The notes under the pieces: generated by a model
Told to the model about the DNA's origin: nothing
The model's database searches: none
Seen by the model: the letters and a program-made list of their open reading frames with translations, nothing else
Source of the DNA: a virus
Direction: 5' to 3' (one strand)
IMG/VR virus record: IMGVR_UViG_3300021168_000077
Span: 1-27,219 of that record
Length of the DNA stretch: 27,219 nucleotides
Shown here: in pieces, positions 1 through 26,252 of the stretch
Position numbering within the stretch: position 1 is the stretch's first letter
Layout: each line of letters opens with the position of its first letter
Made by a program: the position numbers and the translations under genes

Positions 1-2
1 TC

Positions 3-749
3 TATCCCTATCCGTTCCAGTTCGATCCCTCGCAATTTTCGAACAAGTACAGTCCGTACAACGGCGTCCCGCTGCCCAGCTTGGCGAATTACGCCGGCAT
101 GCCGACCGACGCGCACGGCAATCCGATCGGCAGCTACCAAGCGATCGTGGCTCAGCAACAGGCCGCCACGCCGGGAGCCGCGCCGCCGATGGCTCCGTCG
201 ACGTCGATCAACTCGAGTCCATTTTCCGGCGTTCAAATCCCGCAAGGCCAGAATGACGCGGCCTATCAGCCGCGCGGCGGTTTGAATATGCAACAATGGC
301 AGGCGCTAACGCCGCAGCAGCAACTCGCCGCCGGCGCGTCGCTAGGTCAGGTTCAAGCTGGCGTAGCTGCGACGCAGCCCGACAGCTTCGTCGCCTCCCA
401 CAACAATCCCAGTGGCGGTTCGCCCGGAGCAGGCGCGTATCTCCAGGGTTTAGGCGCAACCGCTTTCAACCAGATGGCTAACCAACCAGCCGCCGCGCCC
501 CAGGCTCCGTCGACGCCCGCGCCCGACATGGGCAAAGCTTATCTCCAGGCGCTCGCCAATCCTGGCCAGGTGACCACGCCTGGCGCGACGGTGCCTCAAT
601 CCGCATTGCCCTCGAGCCAGTCGGGCGTCCTGCAGCAATTCCTGCAGAACTGGCAGAACAAGGGAGCCCCAACCACAGGGGCCGGAAACTACAACAACCA
701 AGGGTTCTTCGCAGGACTCCAGGGAGGCCAGAATGCCCAACCCAGCTGA
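3..749 (+). CDS. Gln/Ala/Pro-rich protein, 5' end outside window
   Basis: The frame is open from the first in-frame codon at 3 to the stop at 749, so the gene begins upstream of the window. An internal TTG at 81 is not needed as a start. The product is rich in Gln, Ala, Pro and Gly and has no catalytic motif. It ends 17 bases inside the next gene and belongs to a same-strand run of four such genes. Low-complexity proteins like this are common among virion and internal-head proteins of podovirus-like phages, so a structural role is inferred from composition and position only. No family was recognised. Confidence 0.75.
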   Translation, partial: YPYPFQFDPSQFSNKYSPYNGVPLPSLANYAGMPTDAHGNPIGSYQAIVAQQQAATPGAAPPMAPSTSINSSPFSGVQIPQGQNDAAYQPRGGLNMQQWQALTPQQQLAAGASLGQVQAGVAATQPDSFVASHNNPSGGSPGAGAYLQGLGATAFNQMANQPAAAPQAPSTPAPDMGKAYLQALANPGQVTTPGATVPQSALPSSQSGVLQQFLQNWQNKGAPTTGAGNYNNQGFFAGLQGGQNAQPS

Positions 750-1035
750 CATTCTCTCCGAAGAAACCGACGAAGATCCGGAAGACCAACTCCGGATGCA
801 ACTGGCTCAGGGTCAGGGCAACAACCTCGCCGGCGCACCGCAACCGCCCGGGCAAGCCGGCCTGGCGGGCCAGGGGCCGCCGCAGCCGATGGCTCCCTCG
901 CCCAACGTGCCTGGGCCGCTCGCCGCCTTGGCTAAGCGCCCAGGCAAACCGCATATCAAGCTTAAGAGTCATCCGCCGAAGAAGGGCAAGCCACGCATCA
1001 AACTGAGGGCGTCAGCATATGGCGGGACCATTTGA
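733..1035 (+). CDS. Small Pro/Gly-rich protein with basic C-terminus
   Basis: This is a 100-residue protein starting at ATG 733 after a strong AGGGAGG ribosome site at 721-727. It overlaps the previous gene by 17 bases and the next by 17. The N-terminal 25 residues are acidic, the middle is Pro/Gly/Gln-rich, and residues 68-92 are strongly basic with a repeated KPHIKLK / KPRIKLR pattern. The basic tail could bind DNA or an acidic partner in the virion. That is inference. No family was recognised. Confidence 0.75.
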   Translation: MPNPADILSEETDEDPEDQLRMQLAQGQGNNLAGAPQPPGQAGLAGQGPPQPMAPSPNVPGPLAALAKRPGKPHIKLKSHPPKKGKPRIKLRASAYGGTI

Positions 1036-2641
1036 TTGGGCCAGGTACGTCACTGGCGACACCGACAATCCGGAAGAGGACATCGGCCAATGGGCCGACG
1101 CCAACCAGAAGCGGAACCGCGCCGCGCTCGGGCTCGACGCCAATGGCAACCCGTTGCCGGCGGCCGCAGCGGCTCCTGCAGCCGCCGCCGCGCCGACTCC
1201 AGCGGGCCCGGGCGCGGCCGCGCAAGACCCGAACGCGCAAGCCGCAGCCCAAGCGCAAGCCTCGAGCACGCTGCCGCCTAACCAAGAGCCGAACGCGACC
1301 AAGACGCCGGTCAGCCTCGGCCACTTGATGATGAACCTGCAGCAATACAACGAGCGCGAACAGGGCTTCAATCAGGCGCTCGGCATGGGCTTTGCCGCCT
1401 TTGCCCAGCCGCGCGATCGGCAGATGGTCGCGGGGATGTTTAACACCACGCCGGCCGATCCGACTAAGATCGCGCAGACGCAGATGAGTCTGAGCACACA
1501 GCAACAAGGCCAGGACCGCGCCAACGCCATTAGCATCATCGCTAACGATCCGATCAGGGGCCCAGCGCTCGCGGCGCAACTGCATATGGATTGGGGCGCG
1601 CTCAAAGCCGGCCTGGTCACCGATCCTGCTATGGCCGGGAAGATCGCGGAGGCGCTTGGCACGCCGTCCGAAGCGATCCGAAATCTCACCCAGCTTGGCC
1701 ACATGGGCGGCGGACCTGGCGGACCTGGCGGACCTACCAGACCCAACGGAAGCCCGCTGATCAAGGATCTCACGACCGGGATCACGACCAGCATCGCCGG
1801 TCCGGAGTCAGCCCCCATGATCTCGGCACAGAACGCCTGGCGCGCGGCGCATCCTGGTCAGCCGGATTCGGCCATGCCGTGGCAAGTCGGCAATCTGCAA
1901 TCGTTCAATCAGTACACCACCAACGAGAAGGGAAAGGAGGACGATCGCGCTGCAGCGTCGGCGGCTCTTCCCGATAACAATGAAACCGCCATGCGGCTGC
2001 AGAATGATCTCGAGACGCTACGAGACTCGCCTGGTTTGAAGAGCATCCTTACGACGTCGGGTAAGCGAGCAATCGCTCAGCAAGTCTTGAAAGATCCTAA
2101 TCAGAACGACGCCGCGACGATTCTGGCGAATAATGTGGGACTAACTCAACAAGAAGCAGACGCGATGGCGCTTCTGAAGCGCGTTGGCGGCGCGACGACC
2201 GAAACGGCGATGAAGGGCATGGCCGGCACCGGTACGCGCGTTACGCAAGCGGAGGTTGGACCGCTGAAAGACGCGATCACCACGACGCAGAACCTGAACC
2301 AGAGCTACGATTCCTACATCCATGGGGCGCTCGGCAGCGCGATCACGCGAGCAAAGAAAACGATCGCCACAAATTTCGGCGCGACCGGCAACGTCAAAAA
2401 CATGGACCCGCAATATACGCCGTGGTTGGACGACAATTTCAAGCCTGGCGGCGAGCTCTACAAGGAAGGCGGCGGCGCGGAGGCGCTTCCGGCGGCCAAG
2501 CCTATTCCGCCCGATATGTTGGCTCAGGTGAGACAAGAAGCCTCGAACTATCCCGTTGGGAAAGACGATCTTCTCGACAACCTGCAGCAAGCGGGGTTCG
2601 ACACAAAGAGGCTGCGTCATATGCCGGTTTCGGGATGGTGA
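1019..2641 (+). CDS. Ala-rich phage protein, probably virion-associated
   Basis: This is a 540-residue protein starting at ATG 1019, with GAGGG about ten bases upstream, overlapping the preceding gene by 17 bases. Residues 1-35 look folded and acidic. They are followed by an Ala/Pro-rich linker (about 45-85), a Gln-rich helical part (about 100-200), a Gly-Gly-Pro stretch near 230 and a longer helical C-terminal half. No enzyme motif, signal peptide or membrane segment is clear. Size, position and composition fit an internal virion or injected protein, but the family is not recognised and the function is not established. Confidence 0.8.
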   Translation: MAGPFDWARYVTGDTDNPEEDIGQWADANQKRNRAALGLDANGNPLPAAAAAPAAAAAPTPAGPGAAAQDPNAQAAAQAQASSTLPPNQEPNATKTPVSLGHLMMNLQQYNEREQGFNQALGMGFAAFAQPRDRQMVAGMFNTTPADPTKIAQTQMSLSTQQQGQDRANAISIIANDPIRGPALAAQLHMDWGALKAGLVTDPAMAGKIAEALGTPSEAIRNLTQLGHMGGGPGGPGGPTRPNGSPLIKDLTTGITTSIAGPESAPMISAQNAWRAAHPGQPDSAMPWQVGNLQSFNQYTTNEKGKEDDRAAASAALPDNNETAMRLQNDLETLRDSPGLKSILTTSGKRAIAQQVLKDPNQNDAATILANNVGLTQQEADAMALLKRVGGATTETAMKGMAGTGTRVTQAEVGPLKDAITTTQNLNQSYDSYIHGALGSAITRAKKTIATNFGATGNVKNMDPQYTPWLDDNFKPGGELYKEGGGAEALPAAKPIPPDMLAQVRQEASNYPVGKDDLLDNLQQAGFDTKRLRHMPVSGW

Positions 2642-2644
2642 CCG

Positions 2645-3889
2645 ATGGCTGATAGAATCCAGGGTCTGCCTGGCTACCATCGCGCGCAGGACGATCTGCC
2701 GCCGACGCAGCCGCAAACCGTTTTCCCTAAGTCGCAAGGGAATCAGCAACCGGCTGCGCCGGATGCGACGCCTATTCCCGGTTTGCCGGATTATAAACGG
2801 GCGACGCCAACATCTTCGACTGCCGCGCCGGCAAGCCAGAACAGCCTTCTGTACGACATGTTTCATCCAACTGATGCCGATCTTAGCCGGCCTCAGACCT
2901 GGCATGATTGGCTGACCAAGACCTACAGTCCCTCCGCGAGCCAGGTGGGCTCCGCGGCGCTTGACGACGTTTCTTTCGGCACAGCCGACGCTATTCAGTC
3001 GAAGATTACAGGCGAGAATGTCGGCAATATCCGCGCTCGCACCGCGGACGCCCAGGCCGCGCTCGGGCCGATGGGCCCAGTCGTCAATGCGCTGACTTAC
3101 GCCGTTCCTGGGACCGGCGAACTAAAGTTTGCCGTCACGCCAGGCAGGCTTATTCACAGCGCTGCGGAGCTCGCCAACGCAGGGCGCTACGGCACGGCGG
3201 CAGTGGAAGGCGGCACTGCGGCGGCGCTGAGTTCGGCTGGGCACCAGGCCGGCGATCCTAACGGCATCGATGCTCTGAAAGTCGCCAAGGACGCTGGCTG
3301 GGGCGCGGCGGGCGGCACGGTGATGCAGGGACTAGGCGACGTCACCGCGCCTGTGGCGCAGAAGGTTGGAAACTGGGCGACAGGCAAGCCAGGGACAAGC
3401 AGCGAACAATGGTCAAGCAACCCGCAAGATAATTGGCGCGCACGCGCTGCGGCTGGCGATCCGACTCTGCAGGGCGACATTGCGGTTTCCCAGGCGACGC
3501 TGCCGCCAGATCATCCAGCGCAGCCGGCGCTCGCCAAGGTGCAGGGCGCGCTCGCTCAGCCAACGGATCCAGGCAATGTCGCTCATGCCGTGACCGGCGC
3601 GGGAGCTTGGTACGGGTCGAAATTACTAGGCGGCGACGAGCTTACTCAATTGGCGGCTGGCGGCATATCGCCGTTCGCCTCGAAATATTTCGTCAACAAG
3701 CCAGCGCAAATGATTAATACGGTTGATCGCAACATCAACGTCGGGCAGTCGATGGATCAACTCTATCCGGCGCTGACTAACAATCCGGCGTCAACAACTG
3801 ACACGTCAGGCTGGGCGAACGCTCTCCGCCAGGGTTGGATTGGCGGCGAGCGGTCGACCGACCAGGCTGGAGACGCTCAGTGGTGGTGA
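2645..3889 (+). CDS. Phage protein with Gly/Ala-rich central region
   Basis: This is a 414-residue protein beginning three bases after the previous stop. Near the N-terminus the motif GLPxYxRA occurs twice (residues 7-14 and 46-53), joined by a Pro/Gln-rich linker. From about residue 105 to 235 it is rich in Ala, Gly and small residues with weakly hydrophobic helices, a texture common in phage ejection or internal virion proteins. The last 13 bases overlap the end of the opposite-strand gene 3877-4104, so this is the end of the rightward block. A role in DNA ejection is inferred only from composition and place. Confidence 0.8.
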   Translation: MADRIQGLPGYHRAQDDLPPTQPQTVFPKSQGNQQPAAPDATPIPGLPDYKRATPTSSTAAPASQNSLLYDMFHPTDADLSRPQTWHDWLTKTYSPSASQVGSAALDDVSFGTADAIQSKITGENVGNIRARTADAQAALGPMGPVVNALTYAVPGTGELKFAVTPGRLIHSAAELANAGRYGTAAVEGGTAAALSSAGHQAGDPNGIDALKVAKDAGWGAAGGTVMQGLGDVTAPVAQKVGNWATGKPGTSSEQWSSNPQDNWRARAAAGDPTLQGDIAVSQATLPPDHPAQPALAKVQGALAQPTDPGNVAHAVTGAGAWYGSKLLGGDELTQLAAGGISPFASKYFVNKPAQMINTVDRNINVGQSMDQLYPALTNNPASTTDTSGWANALRQGWIGGERSTDQAGDAQWW

Positions 3890-4104
3890 CTGTTTGCGAG
3901 TTTGTTCTTTTCCGCTTGCGCGATCATCGCGTAGACCCGCATCTTACTTGCCACTAATTCTTCCGGCGTGGCGACATGAGCCGGGGGCTTAGGCTTGGCG
4001 GTCAGCTTGTCTACGAAGCTCGCCCACGCCATGAACACAGCGAAGAGCAAGATCCAGGGGCCGAACACAACGAGGTAGAAGGGGATTTCCTGTAGCACGA
4101 TCAT
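3877..4104 (-). CDS. Small single-pass membrane protein
   Basis: This is a 75-residue protein with one hydrophobic segment at residues 8-30, rich in aromatic residues, followed by a basic, Lys/Pro-containing tail with a helical stretch. It is the last gene of the leftward block and converges with the plus-strand gene ending at 3889, sharing 13 bases. AAAGGA lies just before ATG 4104. A GTG at 4098 would have better spacing and is a possible alternative start. The leader region repeats one found at 20612-20627. Function is unknown; an inner-membrane location is inferred. Confidence 0.7.
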   Translation of the reverse strand: MIVLQEIPFYLVVFGPWILLFAVFMAWASFVDKLTAKPKPPAHVATPEELVASKMRVYAMIAQAEKNKLANSHHH

Positions 4105-4114
4105 TGTCCTTTCG

Positions 4115-4130
4115 TGCTCTTATTTAGCGC
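4115..4130 (-). repeat. 16-base leader repeat, copy 1
   Basis: The plus-strand sequence tgctcttatttagcgc is identical at 4115-4130 and 20612-20627. In both places it spans the stop codon of a minus-strand gene (TAA inside CTAAATAAGAGC). A GAAAGGAC ribosome site follows downstream and serves the next leftward gene. It may be a duplicated leader, a weak promoter -10 region or a processing site. Confidence 0.6.
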
Positions 4131-5596
4131 GTAACTGCGCTGTCTTCAAGGGGCGCGGCGAGTTTTAATTTGCTGAAAACTGCCTCGTAAAGATCCTCTT
4201 TCTTCTGCAGCGCCTTGACCACGCGCCGATCGATGTCCGAGCCGGATAGATCGATATAGAGCACGTTCTCGCCGCGCTGCCCGCGGCGGTGGATCCGGTC
4301 CTCGTCCTGCGTGCGCGTATCGAGGCTGTAGGAGCTTTCGAAAAAGATCATCGTCGAGCAATGGTCGCGCGCCGCCGCGCCTCCTAACAGCGTGTGTCCG
4401 TACTTGATCGCTTCGCTCTGGCCGAGCATGTGCCGGCACTCCGAATCTTCGTTGAAACGGCGCTTTTGCTCCGTCACTTCAGCGGGCTTCATCTGCCCTT
4501 TGATGTAAGCTGGGAAATGCCCCTTGAGCGCCGTCGCGAGAATCTCGAACGTGTAGCGGTGTCGGTAGATGATGATCACCTTGCCCTCGATCTGAGCAAG
4601 CAGATCGAGCAAAACCGCCAGGCGCGGGTTCTTTTCCGGTTCGACCAGAACGCGCGGATCCCCATTTTCGTTGAGGATAAAACCGCACTGGATCTGCGAC
4701 AGTTTCTCGTATTTCGAAACAGCGATGTTGACCGCGACGATCTCAGTTTCCAACTCGAGAAGAAATTCATCCCGCATTTGTTTGTACTGGGCCGCTTGTT
4801 CGCCACTCATCTCATAAGTGCGAATGGTGAAATCTTTGCGCGGGAGCTCCGGAAGCCAGTCGGCTTTTTTGGCCTGGAAGATTACTGGGGCCATGATTCG
4901 CGCGAGCGTGTCGGCGTTTTTAACCCCTATGACTTGCTTGTTTTCCCAGCCGCCCATCTGACAAAAATTATTGCGAAACGCCCAGAATCGGACGCCCTGG
5001 AACAGCCCGATCGCACGCAATTGGGGATAGAGGTCATGTGGCCCCTGTGTTTGTGGCAATCCGCTCAGGCAACGGACGATCTTCGCCTCGAGGGCGAGTT
5101 TGAGCGTCGCCTTGGTTTGCTCACTGTCGTGCGTCTTGATCTGGATTGATTCGTCGATCGCCAGCATCGTCGGCTTGACTCGCATCCAAGCCATCACGCG
5201 CAGGAGAACCGCCGGCATCCGCACCGCTTCGTAATTGATGACCAGGATCGGCGGAGCGCCGTATTTCGTCGTAGCGAACCAGTGATCGTTAGCTTTCGAG
5301 CCCGAAACATAGATGAATGGCTGGAAGGCCAGCCCGTGCTTGAGTATCTCCTCAATCCAGCCAGGTTTAAACGAGTTGGGCGCAATCACCACTAAACGCG
5401 TGACAACTCGATTCTTCGCTGCGCAGTCGAACTCAGCCAAGGTTAGGAGCGTCTTGCCGAGCCCCATTTCCATGAAGTAGCCGACGCCGCGCTTGCCCTC
5501 GCCAAATCTCAGCGCCGCTTCCTGAACCGGATCAAGCTTCACCGTCTGATTCTCGCCAAGAACTCGTTTCGCTGTGCGTCCGTCGTCGTGAGCCAT
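4124..5596 (-). CDS. SNF2-family DNA helicase/translocase
   Basis: This 490-residue superfamily 2 helicase is of the SNF2 type seen in phage replication modules. Motif I is GLGKT at residues 45-49, the motif II position carries DESI at 148-151 in place of the usual DEAH/DEGH, motif III is a variant SGLPQTQG near 178-185, and motif VI is DRIHRRGQ at 433-440. These motifs support ATP-driven movement on double-stranded DNA, probably in replication or recombination. ATG 5596 leaves a 58-base overlap with the gene before it. A later start would cut the conserved region before motif I, so the overlap is accepted. Confidence 0.92.
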   Translation of the reverse strand: MAHDDGRTAKRVLGENQTVKLDPVQEAALRFGEGKRGVGYFMEMGLGKTLLTLAEFDCAAKNRVVTRLVVIAPNSFKPGWIEEILKHGLAFQPFIYVSGSKANDHWFATTKYGAPPILVINYEAVRMPAVLLRVMAWMRVKPTMLAIDESIQIKTHDSEQTKATLKLALEAKIVRCLSGLPQTQGPHDLYPQLRAIGLFQGVRFWAFRNNFCQMGGWENKQVIGVKNADTLARIMAPVIFQAKKADWLPELPRKDFTIRTYEMSGEQAAQYKQMRDEFLLELETEIVAVNIAVSKYEKLSQIQCGFILNENGDPRVLVEPEKNPRLAVLLDLLAQIEGKVIIIYRHRYTFEILATALKGHFPAYIKGQMKPAEVTEQKRRFNEDSECRHMLGQSEAIKYGHTLLGGAAARDHCSTMIFFESSYSLDTRTQDEDRIHRRGQRGENVLYIDLSGSDIDRRVVKALQKKEDLYEAVFSKLKLAAPLEDSAVTR

Positions 5597-5970
5597 AGGG
5601 CTTCAAGCGCATCCGCAGTCGGGGGATGATTGACGTTGTACTCGACTAGTTCGAGCGACATGGTCCCTTTCATCGCGAGGCTTTCAAGCCTGGCGGCGTC
5701 GAGCGGCCGCTTTTCGCGGATCGTTTCGATGCGCCGAATATGGCGCTCAGAGATGTTGAACATCGTCGATCGATCCCGCTTCCCGATCCTGATCTTCCGA
5801 TTCGGATCGAGAATCGAGAGCGCCGTGTCACGGCTGTAGAGGCGCATGAGTGGGATGAAGCCAAGCTCGAAGGCGGCGATCGCGCGATGCGCTTTGTCGG
5901 CGTCGGTATCGCGCGGCCAGCGCATTTTCGTCCTGAGCGCGGCTTCCTTGACCTCCTCGAGGACGCCCAT
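5539..5970 (-). CDS. Hypothetical phage protein
   Basis: The 143-residue form starting at ATG 5970 is chosen because this start lies one base after the upstream stop (TGAGATG). The frame is open to 6021, but that would add only low-complexity residues in an overlap. The product is mostly helical and charged, with a basic central segment (RKIRIGKRDR) followed by a possible helix-turn-helix-like stretch (ISERHIRRIETI). It sits between a winged-helix gene and the SNF2 helicase and could bind DNA. That is inference. No family was recognised. Confidence 0.75.
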   Translation of the reverse strand: MGVLEEVKEAALRTKMRWPRDTDADKAHRAIAAFELGFIPLMRLYSRDTALSILDPNRKIRIGKRDRSTMFNISERHIRRIETIREKRPLDAARLESLAMKGTMSLELVEYNVNHPPTADALEALWLTTTDAQRNEFLARIRR

Positions 5971-5971
5971 C

Positions 5972-6346
5972 TCAGCCGACTTGCTTCCATTTGCCGTCGC
6001 CCATGCGCTCGATGACGCCAACTTTGCGCAGTTCCTCGAGCCGCGAATTGACGGAATTTGCTGAAAAGCCGGCGGCCACGACTTTGGGCTGAAGGTCGAG
6101 CGCGCGCTTGGGTCCGGTCGAAAACTCCGCCATGATGATACCGTTGATGCCCTTCTTCAGATTCGGGCCTGGCGAGGCGCGCTTGTTGGTTTTCTTCTCC
6201 GCTCTTGGCAAGTGAAGCGTCGGCGCTTTCAATTTCGGCACGATTTCGGTGACCGAAACGTCTTCGACCGGCAGGAACTTGGCGATCATGGCGATCAGCG
6301 TATCGGACGCGATCGTGAACCCGATCTTGAATTTGACCTGGCTCAT
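5972..6346 (-). CDS. Winged-helix-like DNA-binding protein
   Basis: This 124-residue protein starts at ATG 6346, which overlaps the upstream stop as ATGA; the longer frame to 6367 is not favoured. The N-terminal half is unassigned, with a basic linker at about 50-70. The C-terminal 55 residues read as a winged helix: a first helix, then FSANSVNSRLEELRKVGVIE as helices 2-3, then the short wing DGKWKQVG at the extreme C-terminus. It is likely a DNA-binding regulator or replication accessory. The target is unknown. Confidence 0.75.
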   Translation of the reverse strand: MSQVKFKIGFTIASDTLIAMIAKFLPVEDVSVTEIVPKLKAPTLHLPRAEKKTNKRASPGPNLKKGINGIIMAEFSTGPKRALDLQPKVVAAGFSANSVNSRLEELRKVGVIERMGDGKWKQVG

Positions 6347-6624
6347 AGGCGGGCCTCGATGCCACAATTGACCTGGTGAACGATCGTTGCTGCGCGAATG
6401 AGATCAGCCAGGTCGCGCGATTCCATAAGGATCTCGACCTCCTTATCGCAGAGCTTATGGGCTAGGCGTTCTTGGCGCGCGTCCGTGGTTTCGACCGGCG
6501 CAGCGACAGTTGGGCAGAGATTTCTCAGCGGTGATAAGAGAACCCAGACGGCGAAAAAACACACAGCAAGCACGGCGCACATGTTGAGCGCGCCTTGCCA
6601 AAACGCTTCCTTCTCTGGCGTCAT
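6343..6624 (-). CDS. Small membrane-anchored protein
   Basis: This 93-residue protein has one hydrophobic segment at about residues 12-31 and a charged, helical domain after it (about 48-85). The start ATG 6624 overlaps the upstream stop as ATGA and the stop overlaps the next start the same way, which fixes both ends. The predicted form is N-terminal anchor plus soluble helical domain. No family was recognised and no function can be given. Confidence 0.75.
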   Translation of the reverse strand: MTPEKEAFWQGALNMCAVLAVCFFAVWVLLSPLRNLCPTVAAPVETTDARQERLAHKLCDKEVEILMESRDLADLIRAATIVHQVNCGIEARL

Positions 6625-6965
6625 CGCGCGGCCCTCCGGATCTTCGCCATGCGGACAACGTGGCCCATAGAACGGCTAGGGATGACCGCTGGCGTGGGTT
6701 GGACGACGGAGGCGGTTTCGATCGCGACGAAGCCCAGTTTGTAGCCCAGCGCACGCGCCACGGCGTTGAGCGAGGCGGCTTGCGGGCGGCGCGTTTCTCC
6801 GGAGAACCAGTTCGCCAGCGTTTGTGTCGAGACGCCCGAATCCTCGTGGATCTGCTTGTAGGTCGCGCCGCTGCCCTGAACGACCGTTCTGAGCTCGTCG
6901 ATAATCGGGTCTTTCTCGACGAAATTGTAGGATTTGTAAGTGAAGCCTTTAATCGTCATCGTCAC
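6621..6965 (-). CDS. XRE/Cro-type helix-turn-helix protein
   Basis: This 114-residue protein has a lambda-repressor-like helix-turn-helix at about residues 22-78. The turn and recognition helix read YKQIHEDSGVSTQTLANWFS, and the next helix is LNAVARALGYKLG. The GTG at 6965 overlaps the upstream stop as GTGA; an ATG at 6959 is the alternative start. It has no protease or dimerisation domain of a classical CI repressor. It is probably a small transcriptional regulator or DNA-binding accessory carried inside the replication block, not placed beside the early promoters. Confidence 0.85.
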   Translation of the reverse strand: MTMTIKGFTYKSYNFVEKDPIIDELRTVVQGSGATYKQIHEDSGVSTQTLANWFSGETRRPQAASLNAVARALGYKLGFVAIETASVVQPTPAVIPSRSMGHVVRMAKIRRAAR

Positions 6966-10620: not shown

Positions 10621-11111
10621 TTCGACCTCGTCAGCGACACATAGCGGGCGACGGACGTCTTGAAGACGTCGTCGGGCGGCTCTTTGCCCTTGTCCTCGGT
10701 TTCGCTGCGCGCCCAAGCGCCCAGAGTTAAGGCGTTGACTGTCTCAATGATCATGCCGCCCTGTCCATTGTCGCGCAGGTATTCATAGCCCTTGGGCTTA
10801 TCGAGGATTGAGCACGACCAACGGCGATTGAGGCCGACGAGTCCATAACCGGGGATTCGGATGTTCTGGATTCCGTGCGCGTCGAAGCAGGCCGGGACGC
10901 GCGTGTAGGAGAGATCTTTGTCGAGCTTATTAAGCTCAGAGATCGTCGACGCCATCGATTCGAGTTCTTCACGCATGTCGGCGTAGAACCTGACGAGATC
11001 AGGGGCTTCGTTGACGCTGATGGCGGATTCGGCTTCTGCGAAGAGGGCGGCGCGGGCCGTTTCGAGCGCCTTTTTCGCCGCTTCGCAGGCGGCTTGAGTC
11101 TCGGGTTTCAT
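10617..11111 (-). CDS. Phage replication-region protein, helical N-terminus
   Basis: This is a 164-residue protein from ATG 11111, the first gene after the promoter at 11169-11196. Residues 1-70 are helical and acidic. The C-terminal 90 (DLSYTRVPACFDAHGI, a beta stretch, then TVNALTLGAWARSE and VARYVSLTR) match my memory of a widespread small phage family that sits beside recombination or ssDNA-binding genes. The family name is not certain and its function is not established. The longer frame to 11153 would run into the promoter leader and is not favoured. Confidence 0.75.
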   Translation of the reverse strand: MKPETQAACEAAKKALETARAALFAEAESAISVNEAPDLVRFYADMREELESMASTISELNKLDKDLSYTRVPACFDAHGIQNIRIPGYGLVGLNRRWSCSILDKPKGYEYLRDNGQGGMIIETVNALTLGAWARSETEDKGKEPPDDVFKTSVARYVSLTRSK

Positions 11112-14992: not shown

Positions 14993-15105
14993 TTGCAGCG
15001 CTCAATCACGTAAATGATTACGCCTAGAATTACGCAAAACTCGCCGATAGACCAGCTAAGCTGATCAAGATTCGTCGTCCAAGTCGGCGGCGAATGCTCA
15101 ATCAT
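14989..15105 (-). CDS. 38-residue transmembrane micro-peptide
   Basis: ATG 15105 overlaps the stop of the DpdA-like gene as ATGA, and the TGA at 14989-14991 overlaps the next start the same way. A soluble N-terminal 20 residues precede a hydrophobic helix (FCVILGVIIYVI) and a short C-terminal ERCK. It sits between two DNA-modification genes, but no role in modification can be read from it. Confidence 0.65.
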   Translation of the reverse strand: MIEHSPPTWTTNLDQLSWSIGEFCVILGVIIYVIERCK

Positions 15106-15809
15106 GCCGCCATCCTATCGACAAAGGCTTGGGCTTCGCGCCAGTCGTTTTGATTGCGCCCTTGCCGCCTGGCTGAATAACTCCACGCCATGCTGTCAGC
15201 CGATTCGAGGCAATCGCGGATCGCTTTGACGCTAAGACTTGTGGTCTTGAGGCCAAACCCGTGTAATCGAAGATCAGGACGCGCATCGAGGATAGCCTCT
15301 AGAACAGCCAGAACAGCCCCAGGATTGCCGTTGCGCTTACAGACGCTGCCGACGCCCACATAAGCGCCCTTGGCCAGTCTTGAGCCATAAGCGAGGACGT
15401 GAGCTCCGTAATCGGGGGGCGCGTAGCCTTGCAGAACCGGCATAATGGCGATCCCGCCAGTATCGAGGGCGACGAGCGCGTCGTAACGCTCGATCGTCAA
15501 CCGCTGATGCTCAGCAATCGTCAAACCTGTCTTGGCCAGCATCGCCGGCTCGCACATGTAATCCTGAGCGACCGCGGTGATGAGATTAGGCGCAGCCCAT
15601 TTGCGAATCATCTCAGCATAAACCTCGACCGGCTCGGGATAGCCGCCATGCTTAGCAATCGTGGTGAATGCGCCCGAATCCATGATCCAGGGCTGGTCAG
15701 TAAACTTGCTCTTGCGCCCCTTGGGTCCGATTAGCGTTGAGACACTGACGAACACCGGGCCCAGGTGCTTGGCGTCGGAAGGATGGTGGACGCCGACATA
15801 GAATTTCAC
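15102..15809 (-). CDS. dpdA: DpdA-like 7-deazaguanine DNA transglycosylase
   Basis: This 235-residue protein starts at GTG 15809, overlapping the primase-helicase stop as GTGA; it begins VKFYVG as family members do. It has the TGT-like signatures DSGAFT (44-49, cf. DSGGF of tRNA-guanine transglycosylase), AQDYMCEP (81-88, D83), GVGSVCKR (152-159), HGFGLK (183-188) and SADSMAWSYSAR. Phage DpdA proteins exchange guanine in DNA for a 7-deazaguanine base, which protects against restriction. No folE, queC, queD or queE is in the window, so the base would come from the host or from elsewhere. The family call is strong; activity and product are inferred. Confidence 0.88.
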   Translation of the reverse strand: MKFYVGVHHPSDAKHLGPVFVSVSTLIGPKGRKSKFTDQPWIMDSGAFTTIAKHGGYPEPVEVYAEMIRKWAAPNLITAVAQDYMCEPAMLAKTGLTIAEHQRLTIERYDALVALDTGGIAIMPVLQGYAPPDYGAHVLAYGSRLAKGAYVGVGSVCKRNGNPGAVLAVLEAILDARPDLRLHGFGLKTTSLSVKAIRDCLESADSMAWSYSARRQGRNQNDWREAQAFVDRMAA

Positions 15810-18349
15810 TTGCCGCGGCCTTTCCACGGTTCCATCGCATCGCCCTCGCGCCAGTCGTTGGGCATGTCGTCATTGGGCTCGAGCTCCCAATGCGAGCGCA
15901 GCGGAACGCCGAGAACCTGGCTGAATAAGCGTTGTAACGCGCCGATCTTGTACTTGAACAAATACTCGCCGTTGGCGAGACTTTCTAATAAGCCGGCATG
16001 AGTGTAGAGCGCCAAAACGGCATCGGCCAAAACAGGTTGCCGAAATCCCATATCCTTGCATGCTTTTCTGACACGCTGCGTGATGTGAAACGAGCGGAAA
16101 GGCATAGCAATATCGAACCCGCTGTGAATCGTGCCGTTTTCGAGAATTTCTTTGGCGACGAGTTGAGTCGGCGTCAGTTGCTCCGCCGCAACGTCGGCGT
16201 CGCGCACCGCAGAATGAGTCAAGTCTTCCACTTGTGCGATATCGTCAGGCGCGCAGTCAATCAAAAGCTTGACGTAAGCCTGGCGCACGTCATCGCGCTT
16301 CAAAAAGGCGGCGTAATCCCGGTAGAACGGTTTCGCCTCTCGGTTCATACGGTCTTGGAATTCGCCAGGCAAAAGGCCTTCGCTCGTTGCGGTGATTGAC
16401 GTCACCTGGAAAATTCCGCGATCTGCGCCCCTCGAAAGACCAGGATTGGGCTCATTCGATGTGAAGGCCAATCGAGCAAAGGTTATGTGCGTTGTTGGAT
16501 TTTGGTTTTTAAATTCGCCAGAAATTTTGGTCGAACGGATCAGGTCTTTTATCGTTTCAATGACTTCCGACTTCGAGACAACTTCGTCGTGATTGACCCA
16601 AAGTCTATCCACGTAATTTGGAATGTAGAACTGGCTCTCAAACGCTTTCATGCTCCCTTTGCCGGCATAATTGCCAAACACAGCTTCCGCAAAATCCTGG
16701 CAGAGAAAAGTCTTCCCGGTGCTCTGATCGCCGGTGCAGACAAGCGCGACTTGTTGTTTTTTGCCGGGATGTTTCAGCGTCCAGCCAAAATGCGCCTTAA
16801 TCCATTCCATACGCCCTTTGTGGTTCTTGGTGACAAGGCTTAGCATGTGATCAAGCTTGTCGATGCACTCAGCCTTGAGCGCCTCATCGATTGTCTTCGC
16901 CGGCAGAATGTAAAGGCCAGCCCATTTATTGAAGATCAGGCGCGAATGCGGCGGCGCGTAATCATTGTCAGGAACGATTACGCCTTGGCGAGTCACACGA
17001 ACAATGGAGCCAGGCGGATAATCGGGATGAATCTCAACGTCGGTGACATCCTGACGGAGCTTCGACTTGATGAAGATTGGAAACGCTTCGACTGGCTTTT
17101 TCTTGGTTTGAATCAAGTCGGGCGCATGGCGAAGCGTCAAGCTCTCGCGAGTGAAGATGAATTGCGCCTGGCCTTCGCGAAAGGCTTGGCGGTCTATAAA
17201 TGCGCCCTCGCCCAGATGGAACAGATACCGCTCCGCGAAGTCTTCAAGCAGGGTTGAATCTGCGCCGACGTTGAGAACCGTGCGCAGCGCCTTGCGCGCT
17301 TCGTCGCCAAAGAAATTGCCGATTCCGGTCCAGCCCATGACGTCGAGGCGCGCAGGATCGGCGTCGAGGCGCTTGCGAGCGAATTGGAACATCTCCAGGC
17401 ATTCCTCGCGATCCGCCGGCTTGCCGCGCTGCTGACAAATGTGTTCGAGCAAAAGCTCAGCGTGCGAGGGATCCGCGATGATCGCGCGCGAGGCGCGCGA
17501 GAACACGACATTGGCGTTGATCGCCTGGCCGTCCCGGACGATGCGCGCCATGAGCTCGGAGAACGCGCGCCGCTTCGAATAGTCCTCCCAGGCTTTCTGG
17601 CTGACGATGTTGAGAATCGACGCGAACGCTGCAGCGCGGACAATCTGAAAGAACTCGACCGGCGCAGCCCCTGTTCGCCAGCGTGCAGCGGGCCCCTGGC
17701 CGCTCTCCGCGCGCCAGGTGATCAGATCATAGTCGACGCCGTTCTCGTGCCACAGGAGGCTTCCTGGCGCGATCGTCGTGACCACATGCGCGTTCGAGCC
17801 TTTCTTGATCGCCGGCGCGTAATTGATGGCGATGCCGCGGCGCGTGTCCTCGAGCGTGAACGCCTTGGGCTTGAAGCCGGAATATTCCTCGTCCAGGCGT
17901 TTCGCTTCGTCGTCGCGGAGCTTGAACAGGATCGACGTCGCAATCGGCTTCGAAGCGCGGCCAAACGCATAGCGCGACGTGATCCCAAGCCTGGCGCATG
18001 CGGCGAAGAAACACTCGTTGATCGATTGATCCGGACCAAAGAAGCGAACTTCGACGACGCCGTTCTGCAGATAGGCGAGCGCGTTGAGCTTCTGCTTGCG
18101 GTCGTTGTCAATCCAAACGCGAAGATCGTCGTCGGTCTGATGAAGCTTCTCGTCCTCGTCGGGCGGCAGCGGCTTATCCGCGCGCGGCAAGCAATAATGA
18201 ACCGGAGCCATGAGTTGACGCGCCGCGAGCACGGTGAGCTCGCGCTGATCCATGACGGTTTTCTTCTGATCAGCCGGTAAATCCAACGTCCAATCGACGT
18301 CGGGCACGAGTTGCACGACAGAACCATCGGGCTTAGGCTGTTTAGGCAT
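15806..18349 (-). CDS. Primase-helicase with SF3-type helicase domain (DUF5906-like)
   Basis: This 847-residue replication protein starts at ATG 18349, with GAGG seven bases upstream; an earlier ATG at 18367 is less well supported. The N-terminal half is unassigned but fits the primase-like part of such proteins. The C-terminal half holds the helicase: Walker A GDQSTGKT (about residues 540-547), Walker B VNHDE (about 585-589) and sensor FTSNEPNP near 630. It would unwind DNA and probably prime synthesis at phage forks. No DNA polymerase is visible in the window. Confidence 0.9.
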   Translation of the reverse strand: MPKQPKPDGSVVQLVPDVDWTLDLPADQKKTVMDQRELTVLAARQLMAPVHYCLPRADKPLPPDEDEKLHQTDDDLRVWIDNDRKQKLNALAYLQNGVVEVRFFGPDQSINECFFAACARLGITSRYAFGRASKPIATSILFKLRDDEAKRLDEEYSGFKPKAFTLEDTRRGIAINYAPAIKKGSNAHVVTTIAPGSLLWHENGVDYDLITWRAESGQGPAARWRTGAAPVEFFQIVRAAAFASILNIVSQKAWEDYSKRRAFSELMARIVRDGQAINANVVFSRASRAIIADPSHAELLLEHICQQRGKPADREECLEMFQFARKRLDADPARLDVMGWTGIGNFFGDEARKALRTVLNVGADSTLLEDFAERYLFHLGEGAFIDRQAFREGQAQFIFTRESLTLRHAPDLIQTKKKPVEAFPIFIKSKLRQDVTDVEIHPDYPPGSIVRVTRQGVIVPDNDYAPPHSRLIFNKWAGLYILPAKTIDEALKAECIDKLDHMLSLVTKNHKGRMEWIKAHFGWTLKHPGKKQQVALVCTGDQSTGKTFLCQDFAEAVFGNYAGKGSMKAFESQFYIPNYVDRLWVNHDEVVSKSEVIETIKDLIRSTKISGEFKNQNPTTHITFARLAFTSNEPNPGLSRGADRGIFQVTSITATSEGLLPGEFQDRMNREAKPFYRDYAAFLKRDDVRQAYVKLLIDCAPDDIAQVEDLTHSAVRDADVAAEQLTPTQLVAKEILENGTIHSGFDIAMPFRSFHITQRVRKACKDMGFRQPVLADAVLALYTHAGLLESLANGEYLFKYKIGALQRLFSQVLGVPLRSHWELEPNDDMPNDWREGDAMEPWKGRGK

Positions 18350-18896: not shown

Positions 18897-19083
18897 CACC
18901 CATCTTCAATTCAAGCTCAGCCAGGGTATCCGAGACGAGCGCCCACTTTTTCGCTAAGTGCGCGTCAAGCGGCGCGACCGCTTCCATCCGCGCCATCGTC
19001 TGTTGCTTGAGGTAGGCGATCAGAGCTTCCGGCTCGTCGAGCACGAGGGCTACGGCGAGCGTTCCTGCGATATCCGCGGTCAT
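18862..19083 (-). CDS. Small helical protein
   Basis: This 73-residue protein from ATG 19083 has AAGGGA upstream. It is predicted to be mostly helical (ALIAYLKQQTMARME, then LVSDTLAELELKMGD) and ends with a basic Pro/Arg stretch. Its first 119 bases lie within the 3' end of the HTH gene in another frame; the natural composition here favours this frame in the overlap. No family was recognised. Confidence 0.65.
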   Translation of the reverse strand: MTADIAGTLAVALVLDEPEALIAYLKQQTMARMEAVAPLDAHLAKKWALVSDTLAELELKMGDVKRPRPADAA

Positions 19084-19402
19084 TGAGTTCTTTCCCTTCA
19101 AACAATTTGCGCATGCCTTCGTTGATCGATTCGGTCTGCGCTTCCGTCACGATCTCCGCCCAAACGCGCGCTTCGCCATATTGCTCAAACGCCTGCTTGG
19201 CGTTTTCGTGCGCGGCTGTGTGCTCGTAGTTGGTGATATAGCGAATGGCGTTTGGCGTTACAGCGAAGGTGCGCGCGATGACTTTGATCGGCACGCCCTT
19301 CAACGCAAACGCGTAGACGGCGACGCGTTCGCCGGTCGAGAGCTTGCGGTCGCGCGACGTCGATTTGATGCCGGCGAGCGTATCCGTGTCCAGGTAGGTC
19401 AT
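18965..19402 (-). CDS. Helix-turn-helix protein with unusual Arg-rich tail
   Basis: This 145-residue protein from ATG 19402 is coupled to the zinc-ribbon gene by ATGA. Residues 22-58 carry a sigma-region-4 or homeodomain-like helix-turn-helix (LSTGERVAVYAFALKGVPI, then IARTFAVTPNAIRYITNY). The last 35 residues are Arg- and Ser-rich and read like an out-of-frame shadow of the next gene. The stop may have moved downstream by a frameshift, or the overlap is real. It is probably a DNA-binding regulator. Confidence 0.7.
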   Translation of the reverse strand: MTYLDTDTLAGIKSTSRDRKLSTGERVAVYAFALKGVPIKVIARTFAVTPNAIRYITNYEHTAAHENAKQAFEQYGEARVWAEIVTEAQTESINEGMRKLFEGKELNDRGYRRNARRSPRARRAGSSDRLPQATDDGADGSGRAA

Positions 19403-20611: not shown

Positions 20612-20627
20612 TGCTCTTATTTAGCGC
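20612..20627 (-). repeat. 16-base leader repeat, copy 2
   Basis: Identical to 4115-4130 (tgctcttatttagcgc). It covers the stop of the gene ending at 20617 and precedes the leader of the gene starting at 20562, about 50 bases downstream, ending in the same GAAAGGAC ribosome-site core. With a TTGCTA 16 bases before TAAATA it could act as a weak promoter. Confidence 0.6.
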
Positions 20628-20862
20628 TTTCCTTGTGCTTAGCAAGCGCGGCGTGCTTCAAATTATGGGCGAGATCAATGATCTCGTGCGCGCTATCCAT
20701 CACCTGGTTGACCAAATACTCGAGCTTCTCCGGATAGTCGGGATCCGGATGGGCGTTGAGAGCTTTGGCCTCACGCCCCATGCGGGCGAGCGCCTTGGTT
20801 AATTTGAGATAGGCGAACTCGAATTCGAATTCGGAACCGAGTTCTGCAGGTGTGAGACTCAT
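20617..20862 (-). CDS. Small helical protein
   Basis: This 81-residue protein is joined upstream by an ATGA overlap at 20859-20862. It is helical, with a FEFEFAYLKLTKALARMG segment and a His-rich C-terminal helix (DSAHEIIDLAHNLKHAALA). It may form a four-helix dimer. No family was recognised. Confidence 0.7.
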   Translation of the reverse strand: MSLTPAELGSEFEFEFAYLKLTKALARMGREAKALNAHPDPDYPEKLEYLVNQVMDSAHEIIDLAHNLKHAALAKHKESAK

Positions 20863-21337: not shown

Positions 21338-21360
21338 GAGGCTCGCCCGTCCTGAGCCTC
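21338..21360. repeat. Leader hairpin
   Basis: gaggctc (21338-21344) and gagcctc (21354-21360) are perfect seven-base inverted repeats around a nine-base loop. The structure sits just upstream of the AGGAGA ribosome site of the gene at 21321, so it could influence its translation. No T-tract is present. Confidence 0.5.
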
Positions 21361-21436: not shown

Positions 21437-21466
21437 ACTATATGGGGGCTATCATGCGCTTATCAA
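21437..21466 (-). promoter_or_regulatory. Early leftward promoter with shared operator cassette
   Basis: Leftward -35 TTGATA (21466-21461), 18-base spacer, -10 TATAGT (21442-21437). The -35 and the following bases belong to an 18-base sequence (plus-strand tatcatgcgcttatcaag, 21450-21467) identical to the one in the promoter at 23462-23489. It overlaps the last codons of the gene ending at 21463 and would serve 21321 and genes beyond. Confidence 0.65.
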
Positions 21467-22116
21467 GTGCGCAAAGTGCGATGATATTGATAATAATTGC
21501 TGTCATCGACGGCTTGGTCGTATTCCCGCGTGCTCATTTGCGCGTCGGTTGGAACGAAGCGAAGGCGGCAAAAATTGAAAGCTTCCTGGCTGGAGGCGAA
21601 ACGGCGTTCGTCGTAAGCGGGATGGCCGCGCAGGGGTCCGGTTTCGCTCTCGCGCCAAGCCCAGCCAGGTTTCTCGCCCCGATCGAATTCGATGGTGAAA
21701 GTTTGGCTCGGGCCGCCCAAGGGGTCTTTGAGCGTGTGAGCTCCGGCGAAACGGGAGGCGCGCGGATTGGCGCGGCCGACGTCGAGGGCGGCGAATTTTG
21801 AACGTTTGACCTGGTCGGCGGCGACGCGCAGGCGATCGCGAATCGCGGCGTTCACGTATTTGTGGATAAAGGCCTCGCGACCGAGCGAACGGTATTCGGC
21901 GGCCACTTTGGGGTAGCGCATTTGACCGGCGTGCCAGGTTCCGGCGGCGCGGAGGCTCGCCATCGTGGCGGGCCGCAACCCTGACGCGCGGGATACAACT
22001 GAAGGTTTAACGCCCTCGCAGAGGGCGGCGTAAAAGGCGCACATTTCGTCGAAGGGGAGGCGCATTGCATGTCGATCTATTTGGTTTTCCACAATGTCGG
22101 CGAATGGGTTTTCCAT
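21463..22116 (-). CDS. Early protein with helix-turn-helix-like segment
   Basis: This is a 217-residue protein from ATG 22116 with a GAGGA site six bases upstream. Residues 22-60 contain FDEMCAFYAALCEGVKPSVV, then SRASGLRPATMASLRAAG, which reads as a helix-turn-helix. The middle is basic, and the C-terminal 70 residues are beta-like with Trp and Arg. It is a possible DNA-binding or packaging-related protein. It lies next to the long inverted repeat, which may contain its promoter. Family not recognised. Confidence 0.75.
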   Translation of the reverse strand: MENPFADIVENQIDRHAMRLPFDEMCAFYAALCEGVKPSVVSRASGLRPATMASLRAAGTWHAGQMRYPKVAAEYRSLGREAFIHKYVNAAIRDRLRVAADQVKRSKFAALDVGRANPRASRFAGAHTLKDPLGGPSQTFTIEFDRGEKPGWAWRESETGPLRGHPAYDERRFASSQEAFNFCRLRFVPTDAQMSTREYDQAVDDSNYYQYHRTLRT

Positions 22117-22136
22117 TTTCAGTCCTCAGAACATAT

Positions 22137-22311
22137 TAGAACGCTTGGGACTTTAGTTCGCTAATACGGTTTAGGTCTATAACTATTGCGCGAGAGAAAA
22201 GAAAAAATCCGCTAGCATGGAAATCCATGTCAGTGAAAACGAGATCATGTTGTCTCGCGCAATAGTTTTAGGGGTAAATCGTATTAGCGACTTAAAGTCT
22301 GAGGGCTTCTA
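22137..22311. repeat. Long imperfect inverted repeat, possible origin or divergent control region
   Basis: Arm A is 22149-22195 and arm B is 22253-22299; they match as inverted copies at 40 of 47 positions. Both then have seven unmatched bases and an inverted pentamer (TAGAA 22137-22141, TTCTA 22307-22311). The 57-base spacer is A-rich on the plus strand and contains the exact palindrome catggaaatccatg (22216-22229). Both flanking genes run leftward. The region 22117-22409 holds no gene. It could be a replication origin or a symmetric regulator site. Confidence 0.75.
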
Positions 22312-22348
22312 TAGAACCCTATCAGACTAAGCGGAGAACCTCTCAAAC

Positions 22349-22372
22349 GCCGGCGCGAAGTCTCGCGCCGGC
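22349..22372. terminator. Strong GC hairpin, terminator-like
   Basis: gccggcgcg (22349-22357) and cgcgccggc (22364-22372) pair perfectly around a six-base loop. No T-tract follows. It lies 38 bases past the stop of the 31-residue gene when read leftward, and after arm B and a TTCTATAGAA palindrome when read rightward. It may end the leftward unit from 23428, or a short rightward RNA. Confidence 0.5.
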
Positions 22373-22409
22373 TCGCCAGTTCTGTCAATCTCCCGAATGC
22401 CCGTTTCCC

Positions 22410-22505
22410 TTATCCGCCAAACCAAACGCAGCAAACGAACGCGCCAAACCCAGCAAACAAGCAAACCAAAAAGCCCGTCCAATCAAGCTTGTCATCAAGG
22501 CTCAT
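22410..22505 (-). CDS. 31-residue transmembrane micro-peptide
   Basis: ATG 22505 overlaps the previous stop as ATGA; the frame ends TAA 22410-22412. A charged start (MSLDDKLDW) is followed by a hydrophobic helix containing FAGFGAFVCC. It is the last gene of the glycosylase unit. The longer frame to 22673 is a shadow. Confidence 0.6.
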   Translation of the reverse strand: MSLDDKLDWTGFLVCLFAGFGAFVCCVWFGG

Positions 22506-22753
22506 CGCAAACCTCCCTTGAAACTGAACCGCGCAAGCCAGGTCGGACCAAGCCGATTGCGCAACCCATGCAGCAATGGCGCGTGATCGCTCGGCAAACA
22601 GCGACCGTAAACGTGGTCGCCCCAGGCCTTCATGAGCTCGGCCTTCCAATGGCGGCCATGGTGCAGCTGCCAATAGGCCAAAGCTTGCAACTCGGCCGGC
22701 GAAAGGCGCGCGCCGCGTTGCGGCCGCTTCTCGCGTGTTTTTGTCTTTTCCAC
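22502..22753 (-). CDS. Small basic phage protein
   Basis: This 83-residue protein starts at GTG 22753, where AGGAAAGG lies nine bases upstream; the frame to 22792 has only a TTG. The sequence is basic at the start (EKTKTREKRPQRGARL), then AELQALAYWQLHHGRHWKAE as a helix and LRNRLGPTWLARF near the end, a pattern I associate with small proteins of alphaproteobacterial phages. Function is unknown. Confidence 0.7.
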   Translation of the reverse strand: MEKTKTREKRPQRGARLSPAELQALAYWQLHHGRHWKAELMKAWGDHVYGRCLPSDHAPLLHGLRNRLGPTWLARFSFKGGLR

Positions 22754-22757
22754 TTTG

Positions 22758-22841
22758 TTAAACCTTTCCTGTTGCCAGCATCGCCAGTGCAAAGACTAGC
22801 GATGCAAATGTTAAGATGTTTGGTAGTATAGCGCCGATCAT
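22758..22841 (-). CDS. 27-residue transmembrane micro-peptide
   Basis: ATG 22841 overlaps the glycosylase stop as ATGA, and the TAA at 22758-22760 lies four bases before the next GTG start. Almost the whole product is one hydrophobic helix (LPNILTFASLVFALAMLATG). It is accepted on coupling and composition only. Confidence 0.55.
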   Translation of the reverse strand: MIGAILPNILTFASLVFALAMLATGKV

Positions 22842-23428
22842 GCCAAGCACTCGACATGATAGGCGCTAACGGCGTCCGCGCTTGCCAATGAGCGGTTGGC
22901 GCGCGAACCGGCGACGGTTTCGCACCAGGTATTCCACCAATGGCGCGCGCCGCCTGTTTCTAAGCATAGTTCCAAGTAATGCTTGATCTTGGCAAGCTTA
23001 GTATTATGCTTTACTGTTTTCGCAAGCTTAAACGCGCTCTCGCCAAGACCAAGTCGGCGCAAGTTGTGGGTGTCGAGGCATGAGGCCTCGAGACCGCAAA
23101 TTTGCGCAACGAACGCCGCCTTGACAATGCCGAGACCTGGCACGTTCGACAAGACGTCGACCGCGCCAATGGCGTCATTGACTTGGCAAGCCTTGACGAT
23201 TGCAGCGTGAAGCACATGCTTATGCTCGAGAGCATAAGCATAGCCATCGCGCTTGCTGCCAAACAGATACTTCGATGTTGCGCCGTTGGCGCGGACATCG
23301 CGCATCTGGTTGGCGACGGAGCTCAACGGTTGCTGGATTGTGCAGAGCACAAAGCCGATCACGTCGACGAGTCCATCGGGCGAGGCAAGCGCATGCGCTT
23401 GCATGATAGGCATATCGCGGTCATACAT
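22838..23428 (-). CDS. HhH-GPD DNA glycosylase-like protein
   Basis: This is a 196-residue protein from ATG 23428 (GAGA six bases upstream); earlier in-frame ATGs at 23440 and 23449 are possible. A helix-hairpin-helix VPGLGIVKAA (about 96-105) and the LDTHNLRR segment with the catalytic-type Asp (D119) match HhH-GPD base-excision glycosylases. The position of the endonuclease III catalytic Lys is Val, which suggests a monofunctional or altered enzyme. It has its own promoter and may act on damaged or modified bases in host or phage DNA. Confidence 0.75.
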   Translation of the reverse strand: MYDRDMPIMQAHALASPDGLVDVIGFVLCTIQQPLSSVANQMRDVRANGATSKYLFGSKRDGYAYALEHKHVLHAAIVKACQVNDAIGAVDVLSNVPGLGIVKAAFVAQICGLEASCLDTHNLRRLGLGESAFKLAKTVKHNTKLAKIKHYLELCLETGGARHWWNTWCETVAGSRANRSLASADAVSAYHVECLA

Positions 23429-23461
23429 GATAAGTCTCATTAACCTCATTAGTACCAATGA

Positions 23462-23489
23462 GATATAAGGCTTATCATGCGCTTATCAA
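23462..23489 (-). promoter_or_regulatory. Early leftward promoter of the glycosylase unit
   Basis: Leftward -35 TTGATA (23489-23484), 16-base spacer, -10 TATATC (23467-23462); start near 23455, with ATG at 23428. The -35 region lies in the 18-base cassette shared with 21450-21467. Confidence 0.65.
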
Positions 23490-23505
23490 GCGCATATCAT
23501 GCGCT
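23473..23505. repeat. Repeated operator-like sites
   Basis: tatcatgcgct occurs on the plus strand at 23473-23483 and 23495-23505, 22 bases apart (about two helical turns), overlapping the spacer and flanking the -35 of the leftward promoter. A third copy is at 21450-21460. This is a typical layout for a repressor or activator operator. Confidence 0.65.
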
Positions 23506-23581: not shown

Positions 23582-23730
23582 GACATGCGCCTTGCTGCGC
23601 GCCCAATTTAAACACATCCGCCTTGGTCTAATCGCTATTGCGGAAACGCAGAAGGCCCCCCTTGAGGTTTTCTGATTTGGGGCCCCGGGCGCACTTAAGT
23701 CATGCCTCGGAATGTGTTAAACTATACCAC

Positions 23731-24162
23731 ATGACAAACTGTGAATACTGCGAACGAATCTTTAATGCCAGTCTTCACGAGTTGTTTTGCAGTAATCGCT
23801 GCTGTACGGCTTTTTCGCGTGAGAGGGATCTTGCGGAGAGGTTGGAGGCGTTATCAATTCCAGAGCCGAATAGCGGCTGCAAATTGTGGTTGGGCCAATT
23901 AAATTCGAGGGGTTACGGGCAACTTCGCATCAGGAGAAAGTTTCGAAGAGTTCATCAAGTTGCTTACGAGCTTGCGAAGGGGCCTATTCCGCCAGGCAAG
24001 ATGATTTGCCACACATGCGATGTACAGATTTGCATAGAGGCTAACCATCTTTATGCCGGAACGGCGAAGACGAATTCGGACGATATGTGGCGGCGAGGGC
24101 GCGCTCCGAAAACTTGGCGGCGGCTTCAGCGTGGCGCTGACGCGCGGTGGAAATCGGGTTAA
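23731..24162 (+). CDS. HNH endonuclease
   Basis: This is a 143-residue protein from ATG 23731; an open frame further upstream to 23638 is not favoured. The N-terminus has a Cys-rich zinc-binding segment (CEYC ... CSNRCC). The C-terminal half is an HNH core: RRVHQVAYELAKGPIPPG, then CHTCDVQICIEANHLYAG with the metal-site His and Asn. HNH proteins beside terminase genes can assist DNA packaging cleavage (as HK97 gp74 does), or can be homing endonucleases; position favours the first without proving it. No ribosome site is obvious. Confidence 0.85.
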   Translation: MTNCEYCERIFNASLHELFCSNRCCTAFSRERDLAERLEALSIPEPNSGCKLWLGQLNSRGYGQLRIRRKFRRVHQVAYELAKGPIPPGKMICHTCDVQICIEANHLYAGTAKTNSDDMWRRGRAPKTWRRLQRGADARWKSG

Positions 24163-26039: not shown

Positions 26040-26252
26040 ATGAGCACGCATGGGATTCGGATTCGCGCCGATCGAGTGACGCTGAGTGTCAGTCCGGAAC
26101 AGCAGGAATGGCTGAACGGTTTGGCGCGGCGGTACGGCGTTTCAGTCAGCGACATTTTGCGTCGCCTGATCGACGAGACGCGGGGCGCGTATTTGACGCC
26201 GTGCGACGCACGCTCGTCACGGGAGACGGGTAGTCAACGGGAAGCCGCTTAA
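26040..26252 (+). CDS. Ribbon-helix-helix protein
   Basis: This is a 70-residue protein from ATG 26040; a GTG at 26031 is the alternative. The pattern IRADRVTLSVSPEQQEWLNG (strand, helix 1), then YGVSVSDILRRLIDE (helix 2), is typical of ribbon-helix-helix DNA-binding proteins, with a polar disordered tail after about residue 48. A small transcriptional repressor within the packaging-structural block is likely. Confidence 0.75.
   Translation: MSTHGIRIRADRVTLSVSPEQQEWLNGLARRYGVSVSDILRRLIDETRGAYLTPCDARSSRETGSQREAA

Follow-up and report, generated by a model that had tools for sequence, protein, structure and literature searches.

A candidate direct-repeat operator at the predicted leftward early promoters of a metagenomic podovirus and its relatives

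Recognition of direct repeats is uncommon among bacterial regulators (PMC9723621). ArdK of plasmid R388, a small HTH protein, represses five entry-phase promoters, to different degrees, and at these promoters the -35 box is repeated directly (GTATTGACACCTATTGACA); it is for ArdK that repression of several promoters through direct-repeat operators including the -35 box has been proven (PMC9723621). The locus described here lies in a window of 27,219 nucleotides, positions 1 to 27,219 of the linear IMG/VR virus record IMGVR_UViG_3300021168_000077. As in the ArdK regulon, a direct repeat includes the -35 box and is common to several promoters of the replicon, designated P1 and P2 in the window and P1 to P3 in its relatives. 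In R388 the repeated element is TTGACA, recurring every 10 bp, whereas the phage unit is CTYGATAAG with an 11-bp period and has its second copy in the spacer; moreover, the ArdK regulon belongs to a plasmid, whereas the array here belongs to an uncultured phage. Judged by this comparison, the repeat logic appears to match the known ArdK type and not to be categorically new. No KorA/ArdK-family protein was recognised with Pfam among the phage's DNA-binding candidates, and a Foldseek comparison of the model of one of them, a 217-aa HTH protein, with ArdK (7bca) gave an E-value of 2.0 only.

The alphaproteobacterial LexA box, GTTC-N7-GTTC (PMC3323433), is also a direct repeat with an 11-bp period, but its sequence differs. 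It was rejected as an identity for the phage repeats, occurring in the window at chance level only and not at these promoters. Arc and MetJ, which are RHH proteins, bind tandem short palindromes in arrays; the phage sites are likewise tandem, short and about one turn apart, and the phage has an RHH gene. Ochrobactrum phage vB_OspP_OH (MT028492, L058), a relative with 49% terminase identity, has homologues of the phage's HTH proteins and, like the window, several early promoter-like sites with a common repeated element (MT028492, positions 1-6000). That element, however, is an inverted repeat resembling TGTGACAGNCTGTCACA and placed upstream of the -35 box; the window's motif is absent, a search with the motif pattern giving a single match with two mismatches. 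The early promoter-like sites of phage OH also have a common -10 box, TGGTAAAAT. Upstream repeats were seen by eye in two distant phages (L005 and L010).

In the window, exact copies of the 18-mer TATCATGCGCTTATCAAG are present at 21450-21467 and 23473-23490, as a sequence-only reading of this DNA had claimed, and the promoter boxes proposed there also stand: a TTGATA -35 box followed by N16 and TATATC (P1) or by N18 and TATAGT (P2). With up to 3 mismatches, the 18-mer was found at 3 places, against 0.01 expected from shuffles. Part of it, TATCATGCGCT, is exact at 23495-23505 too; this copy, which that reading had correctly located and treated as an extra, belongs to the P1 array, whose period is 11 bp, as its third unit. 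The array nature of the cassette had been overlooked, as had a degenerate third site at 20618-20645 (P3). The 18-mer thus falls within 11-bp direct repeats, WTGATAWGCGC, arrayed as three units at P1 and two at P2; the -35 box (TTGATA) comes from one unit, and its neighbour occupies the spacer ahead of the -10 box. Read leftward, P1 is ATGATATGCGC-TTGATAAGCGC-ATGATAAGCCT-TATATC and P2 is TTGATAAGCGC-ATGATAGCCCCCA-TATAGT. Self-matches at lag 11 numbered 23 at P1, compared with 8.5 in shuffles, and 0/2000 shuffles scored as high. The features of the three promoters are as follows.

23473-23505, minus strand: P1 candidate operator array, with units at 23495-23505, 23484-23494 and 23473-23483 (from sequence and shuffles).
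23479-23493 and 23490-23504, minus strand: P1 array palindromes, GCGCTTATCAAGCGC and GCGCATATCATGCGC respectively (from sequence).
23462-23489, minus strand: P1 predicted promoter, with -35 TTGATA at 23484-23489, a 16-bp spacer and -10 TATATC at 23462-23467.
21450-21471, minus strand: P2 candidate operator, with units at 21461-21471 and 21450-21460 (from sequence and held-out matrix).
21437-21466, minus strand: P2 predicted promoter, with -35 TTGATA at 21461-21466, an 18-bp spacer and -10 TATAGT at 21437-21442.
20618-20645, minus strand: P3, a degenerate third promoter (predicted), with -35 TTGCTA at 20640-20645, a 16-bp spacer and -10 TAAATA at 20618-20623.

P2 was found independently by a consensus scan (10/12 matches), and the stop codon of gene 21463-22116 falls within its operator; P3 comes after gene 20617-20862, overlapping its stop codon. 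A search of the IMG/VR viral collection with the 18-mer recovered no species other than the window's own, of which G001 (IMGVR_UViG_3300021181_000016) has it at both places. The ends of G001 overlap by approximately 145 bp, and it was therefore taken as a complete genome of approximately 45.4 kb. Exact copies of the palindrome GCGCWTATCAWGNGC in this genome are confined to P1 (two) and P2 (one). At 23426-23440 of the window, where the first P1 gene has its start codon, the operator unit recurs in inverted orientation (CATGATAAG read on the plus strand).

Searches with the window's proteins recovered syntenic relatives, seven of which share the design CTTGAYAA-N2-ACTCGATAAG in at least one corresponding promoter, giving eight motif-bearing phages with the window included. 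Set side by side, the promoters have the consensus CTTGATAAnCACTCGATAAG, followed after a few bases by the -10 box. The P1 promoter aligns with P1 of the seven relatives, and P2 is kept at the same position in L012/L040 and other relatives. P3, weak in the window, has counterparts in L037, L038, L039 and L055, and also in L040, there without a GATAA copy. Sites were ranked with a matrix built from promoters that had been selected and lined up by eye, the phage under test being held out of training (for the window and L040, both). Some promoter ranked first in 7/7 relatives, and P1 or P2 in 6/7: P1 in L033, L037 and L039 (P3 second in the latter two), P2 in L034 and L040 (P1 second in both), and P1, P2 and P3 together taking first to third place in L055. 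P3 ranked first in L038, but P2 there was 10th and P1 14th. Among the 54,396 positions of the window, P1 ranked 5th, P2 6th and P3 20th, and the top match, at 10796, lay within a coding region.

Periodicity of 11 bp across the whole 47-bp stretch was not significant in most relatives, partly since the first unit was often shifted by 1 bp, and in most relatives it is the two-unit core that would carry the case. The motif pattern had 0 matches in the outgroup G008 (60% terminase identity), and more distant relatives had no promoter-like pattern matches; megablast of the window gave no match among 50,697 phages, and no prophage relative came from searching genome contigs with the terminase alignment. 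The proposal that one regulator controls two transcription units is well supported by conservation, the spacer-embedded repeat recurring at corresponding promoters of seven other phages while being absent from the outgroup, except in its count: because P3 is promoter-like in six phages, three units are probably controlled, rather than two.

What the sequences show is the repeats, their placement with respect to the -35 and -10 boxes and the fact that corresponding promoters keep them; we infer transcription, repression in preference to activation, and the identity of the protein reading the operator. On balance it seems probable that one phage-encoded regulator, most simply a repressor, is bound head-to-tail over the -35 box and spacer and switches the early gene blocks jointly. 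P1, P2 and, more weakly, P3 would be leftward early promoters of the host sigma-70 type, usable at once on infection; as good sigma-70-type sites, they should fire on entry. Each would carry a tandem operator of 9-bp units, CTYGATAAG, arranged head-to-tail every 11 bp (one helical turn), and a phage-encoded DNA-binding protein, itself a product of these early units, would fill the repeats side by side on one DNA face, excluding RNA polymerase. All early units would then be turned down jointly after an initial burst, with P1, which has three units, the most tightly held. Repression is the simplest reading because a protein over the -35 box and spacer would exclude polymerase, and timed shut-off of early genes would fit better than lysogeny, since no integrase (PF00589) was found in seven records, including the complete G001.

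In favour of a bound repressor, the second unit lies in the spacer, which sigma-70 does not require. That a protein bound in the spacer usually blocks polymerase, and that the -35 and -10 boxes match well as they stand, makes it improbable that the repeats are the sites of an activator or alternative polymerase factor, although one HTH protein (18965-19402) is faintly similar to sigma-70 region 4 (E 0.02). Still harder to credit would be that promoter conservation or an old duplication accounts for the whole pattern, the repeat being read by no regulator: each array does include the -35 box as one of its parts, and P1 and P2 have one and the same 18-mer, but the spacer unit is conserved across phages along with the -35 box, while the flanks of P1 and P2 differ. 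Replication iterons were rejected, the repeats staying in register with the -35 and -10 boxes at several promoters, as was a host operator, for which six scattered single matches in 84,980 species genomes were about the chance number. A DnaA box needs a CACA end, which TTATCATGC lacks, and this identity too was rejected.

Four DNA-binding candidates, of which one is the Cro-like HTH protein at 6621-6965, were compared as possible readers of the operator. The other three, and the first gene of the P1 unit, are as follows.

22838-23426, minus strand: first gene of the P1 unit, HhH-glycosylase-like by eye.
21463-22116, minus strand: 217-aa HTH protein of the P1 unit, encoded between P1 and P2, with a recognition helix that varies among phages.
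18965-19402, minus strand: 145-aa HTH protein, the most likely predicted operator reader, with a conserved recognition helix.
26040-26252, plus strand: RHH (CopG-family) protein, encoded downstream of terminase, the second candidate.

The leftward early region of the relatives has a similar order: P1, one or two small genes, the 217-aa HTH gene, P2, small genes, P3, the 145-aa HTH gene and primase. Gene 22838-23426 had no match in Pfam or PHROGs. The small genes after P1 are HhH-like in the window and L039, and most relatives (L033, L034, L037, L038 and L040) have a GP88-family gene in place of the 22838-23426 type. Adjoining primase, gene 15102-15827 is similar to phage queuine tRNA-ribosyltransferase (phrog_1279, E 6e-62). 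An HNH endonuclease gene (23728-24162) lies between P1 and the gene upstream of terminase; none was seen at that place in L012.

The likeliest reader, tentatively and at somewhat less than even odds, would be the 145-aa HTH protein. Its family is present in 7/7 motif-bearing records that reach the gene, so that, among the three regulators named by the sequence-only reading, it alone was found wherever its region was covered, and its recognition helix, NA[IV]YYITN, is nearly invariant, as is the operator. A Y54R change occurs in exactly the window and L012, whose unit is ATGATAAG and not TCGATAAG; because these are sister phages, the matched change in protein and operator would count as one evolutionary event and is suggestive only. 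G008 and Ochrobactrum phage OH, both without the motif, have members of the family too. The Cro-like protein, another of the three, appears disfavoured: its family is in G001, G006, G002 and G003 and is not in G004, G005 or G007, of which G005 (44.7 kb), a motif-bearing record, is close to full length. A Cro/CI-like HTH protein conserved with the operator, as lambda-type immunity would have, was thus not found.

The RHH protein would rank second. As a late product binding tandem short palindromes, it would shut off the early promoters when late genes start, a role that we consider possible but doubtful. It has an RHH_1 domain and is encoded downstream of terminase in nine records, including 7/8 motif-bearing phages, and the unit CTTGATAAG, a short near-palindrome once per turn, suits RHH arrays. 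The operator scarcely varies, yet the predicted DNA-contact strand of the RHH protein does (S, N, K, T), and, unlike in the Arc and MetJ systems, the covered part of one motif-bearing relative with a near-perfect operator (L033/G009, a partial record) has no RHH gene in the 8.6 kb downstream of terminase. Less plausible again is the 217-aa protein as an autoregulator made from P1 and controlling P2 too. This predicted HTH protein is encoded between P1 and P2 wherever both are covered, and in 8/8 motif-bearing phages, and it is a distant paralogue of the 145-aa protein (hhalign 94.7%, E 6e-8). Yet almost every phage has a different recognition helix in this protein, against a nearly invariant operator; the window's version resembles the L033 and L034 proteins (49%) more than the L012 protein (36%), although the window and L012 have matching operators; and the family is also in G008 and G015, both without the motif. 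Models of the 145-aa and 217-aa proteins were of moderate confidence (mean pLDDT 70 and 80, respectively) with helices placed as in HTH proteins in each, and Foldseek against the PDB gave only weak HTH-like matches for either.

A further element lies in the P2 leader.

21338-21360, minus strand: P2-leader hairpin, with the loop AGGACGGGC invariant in seven phages and a covarying stem, just before the ribosome-binding site.

The other copies, at 5220 in L012, 701 in L034, 6493 in L037, 6660 in L038, 7183 in L039 and 7118 in L055, are also downstream of P2, mostly adjoining the ribosome-binding site, and a conserved GCAACG stretch precedes the hairpin. Changes on both sides of the stem were seen at 5/7 pairs, with a covariation score of 0.50; shuffles scored 0.18, and sliding never gave more than 0.27. 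Rfam gave no match to the hairpin at gathering scores, and it is possibly a new structured RNA. A broader scheme, which we regard as speculative and rather unlikely as a whole, is that direct repeats in the -35 box and spacer of every early promoter are bound by head-to-tail oligomers of an HTH family unnamed in Pfam and PHROGs, comprising the 145-aa protein and its 217-aa paralogue, and that this family, along with structured leaders of which this hairpin is an example, times early genes across the whole podovirus clade.

These data provide a mapped early regulon with a defined candidate operator for a podovirus clade, the close members of which come solely from metagenomes in this analysis, and name a few proteins as candidate readers. 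A phage repressor family using direct-repeat recognition would, if true, be a useful case, and the differing operators of close relatives allow protein to be compared with site.

Two other elements were seen in the region. Upstream of the 217-aa HTH gene is a long inverted repeat (22137-22311; 62-nt arms, 79% complementary, DNA fold z -7.1), whose centre, ACTGACATGG..CCATG, is common to L012 (approximately 4260-4430) and L015 (approximately 4600-4780), while the arms differ. Between P1 and the terminase genes, at approximately 23655-23700, is a G/C-rich conserved element, GGGGCCCC ... AGAA..CTNAAGGGGGGCCTTCTG or variants, which could be a packaging site or terminator and is found at a similar place in L033, L034, L037, L038, L039, L040 and L055.
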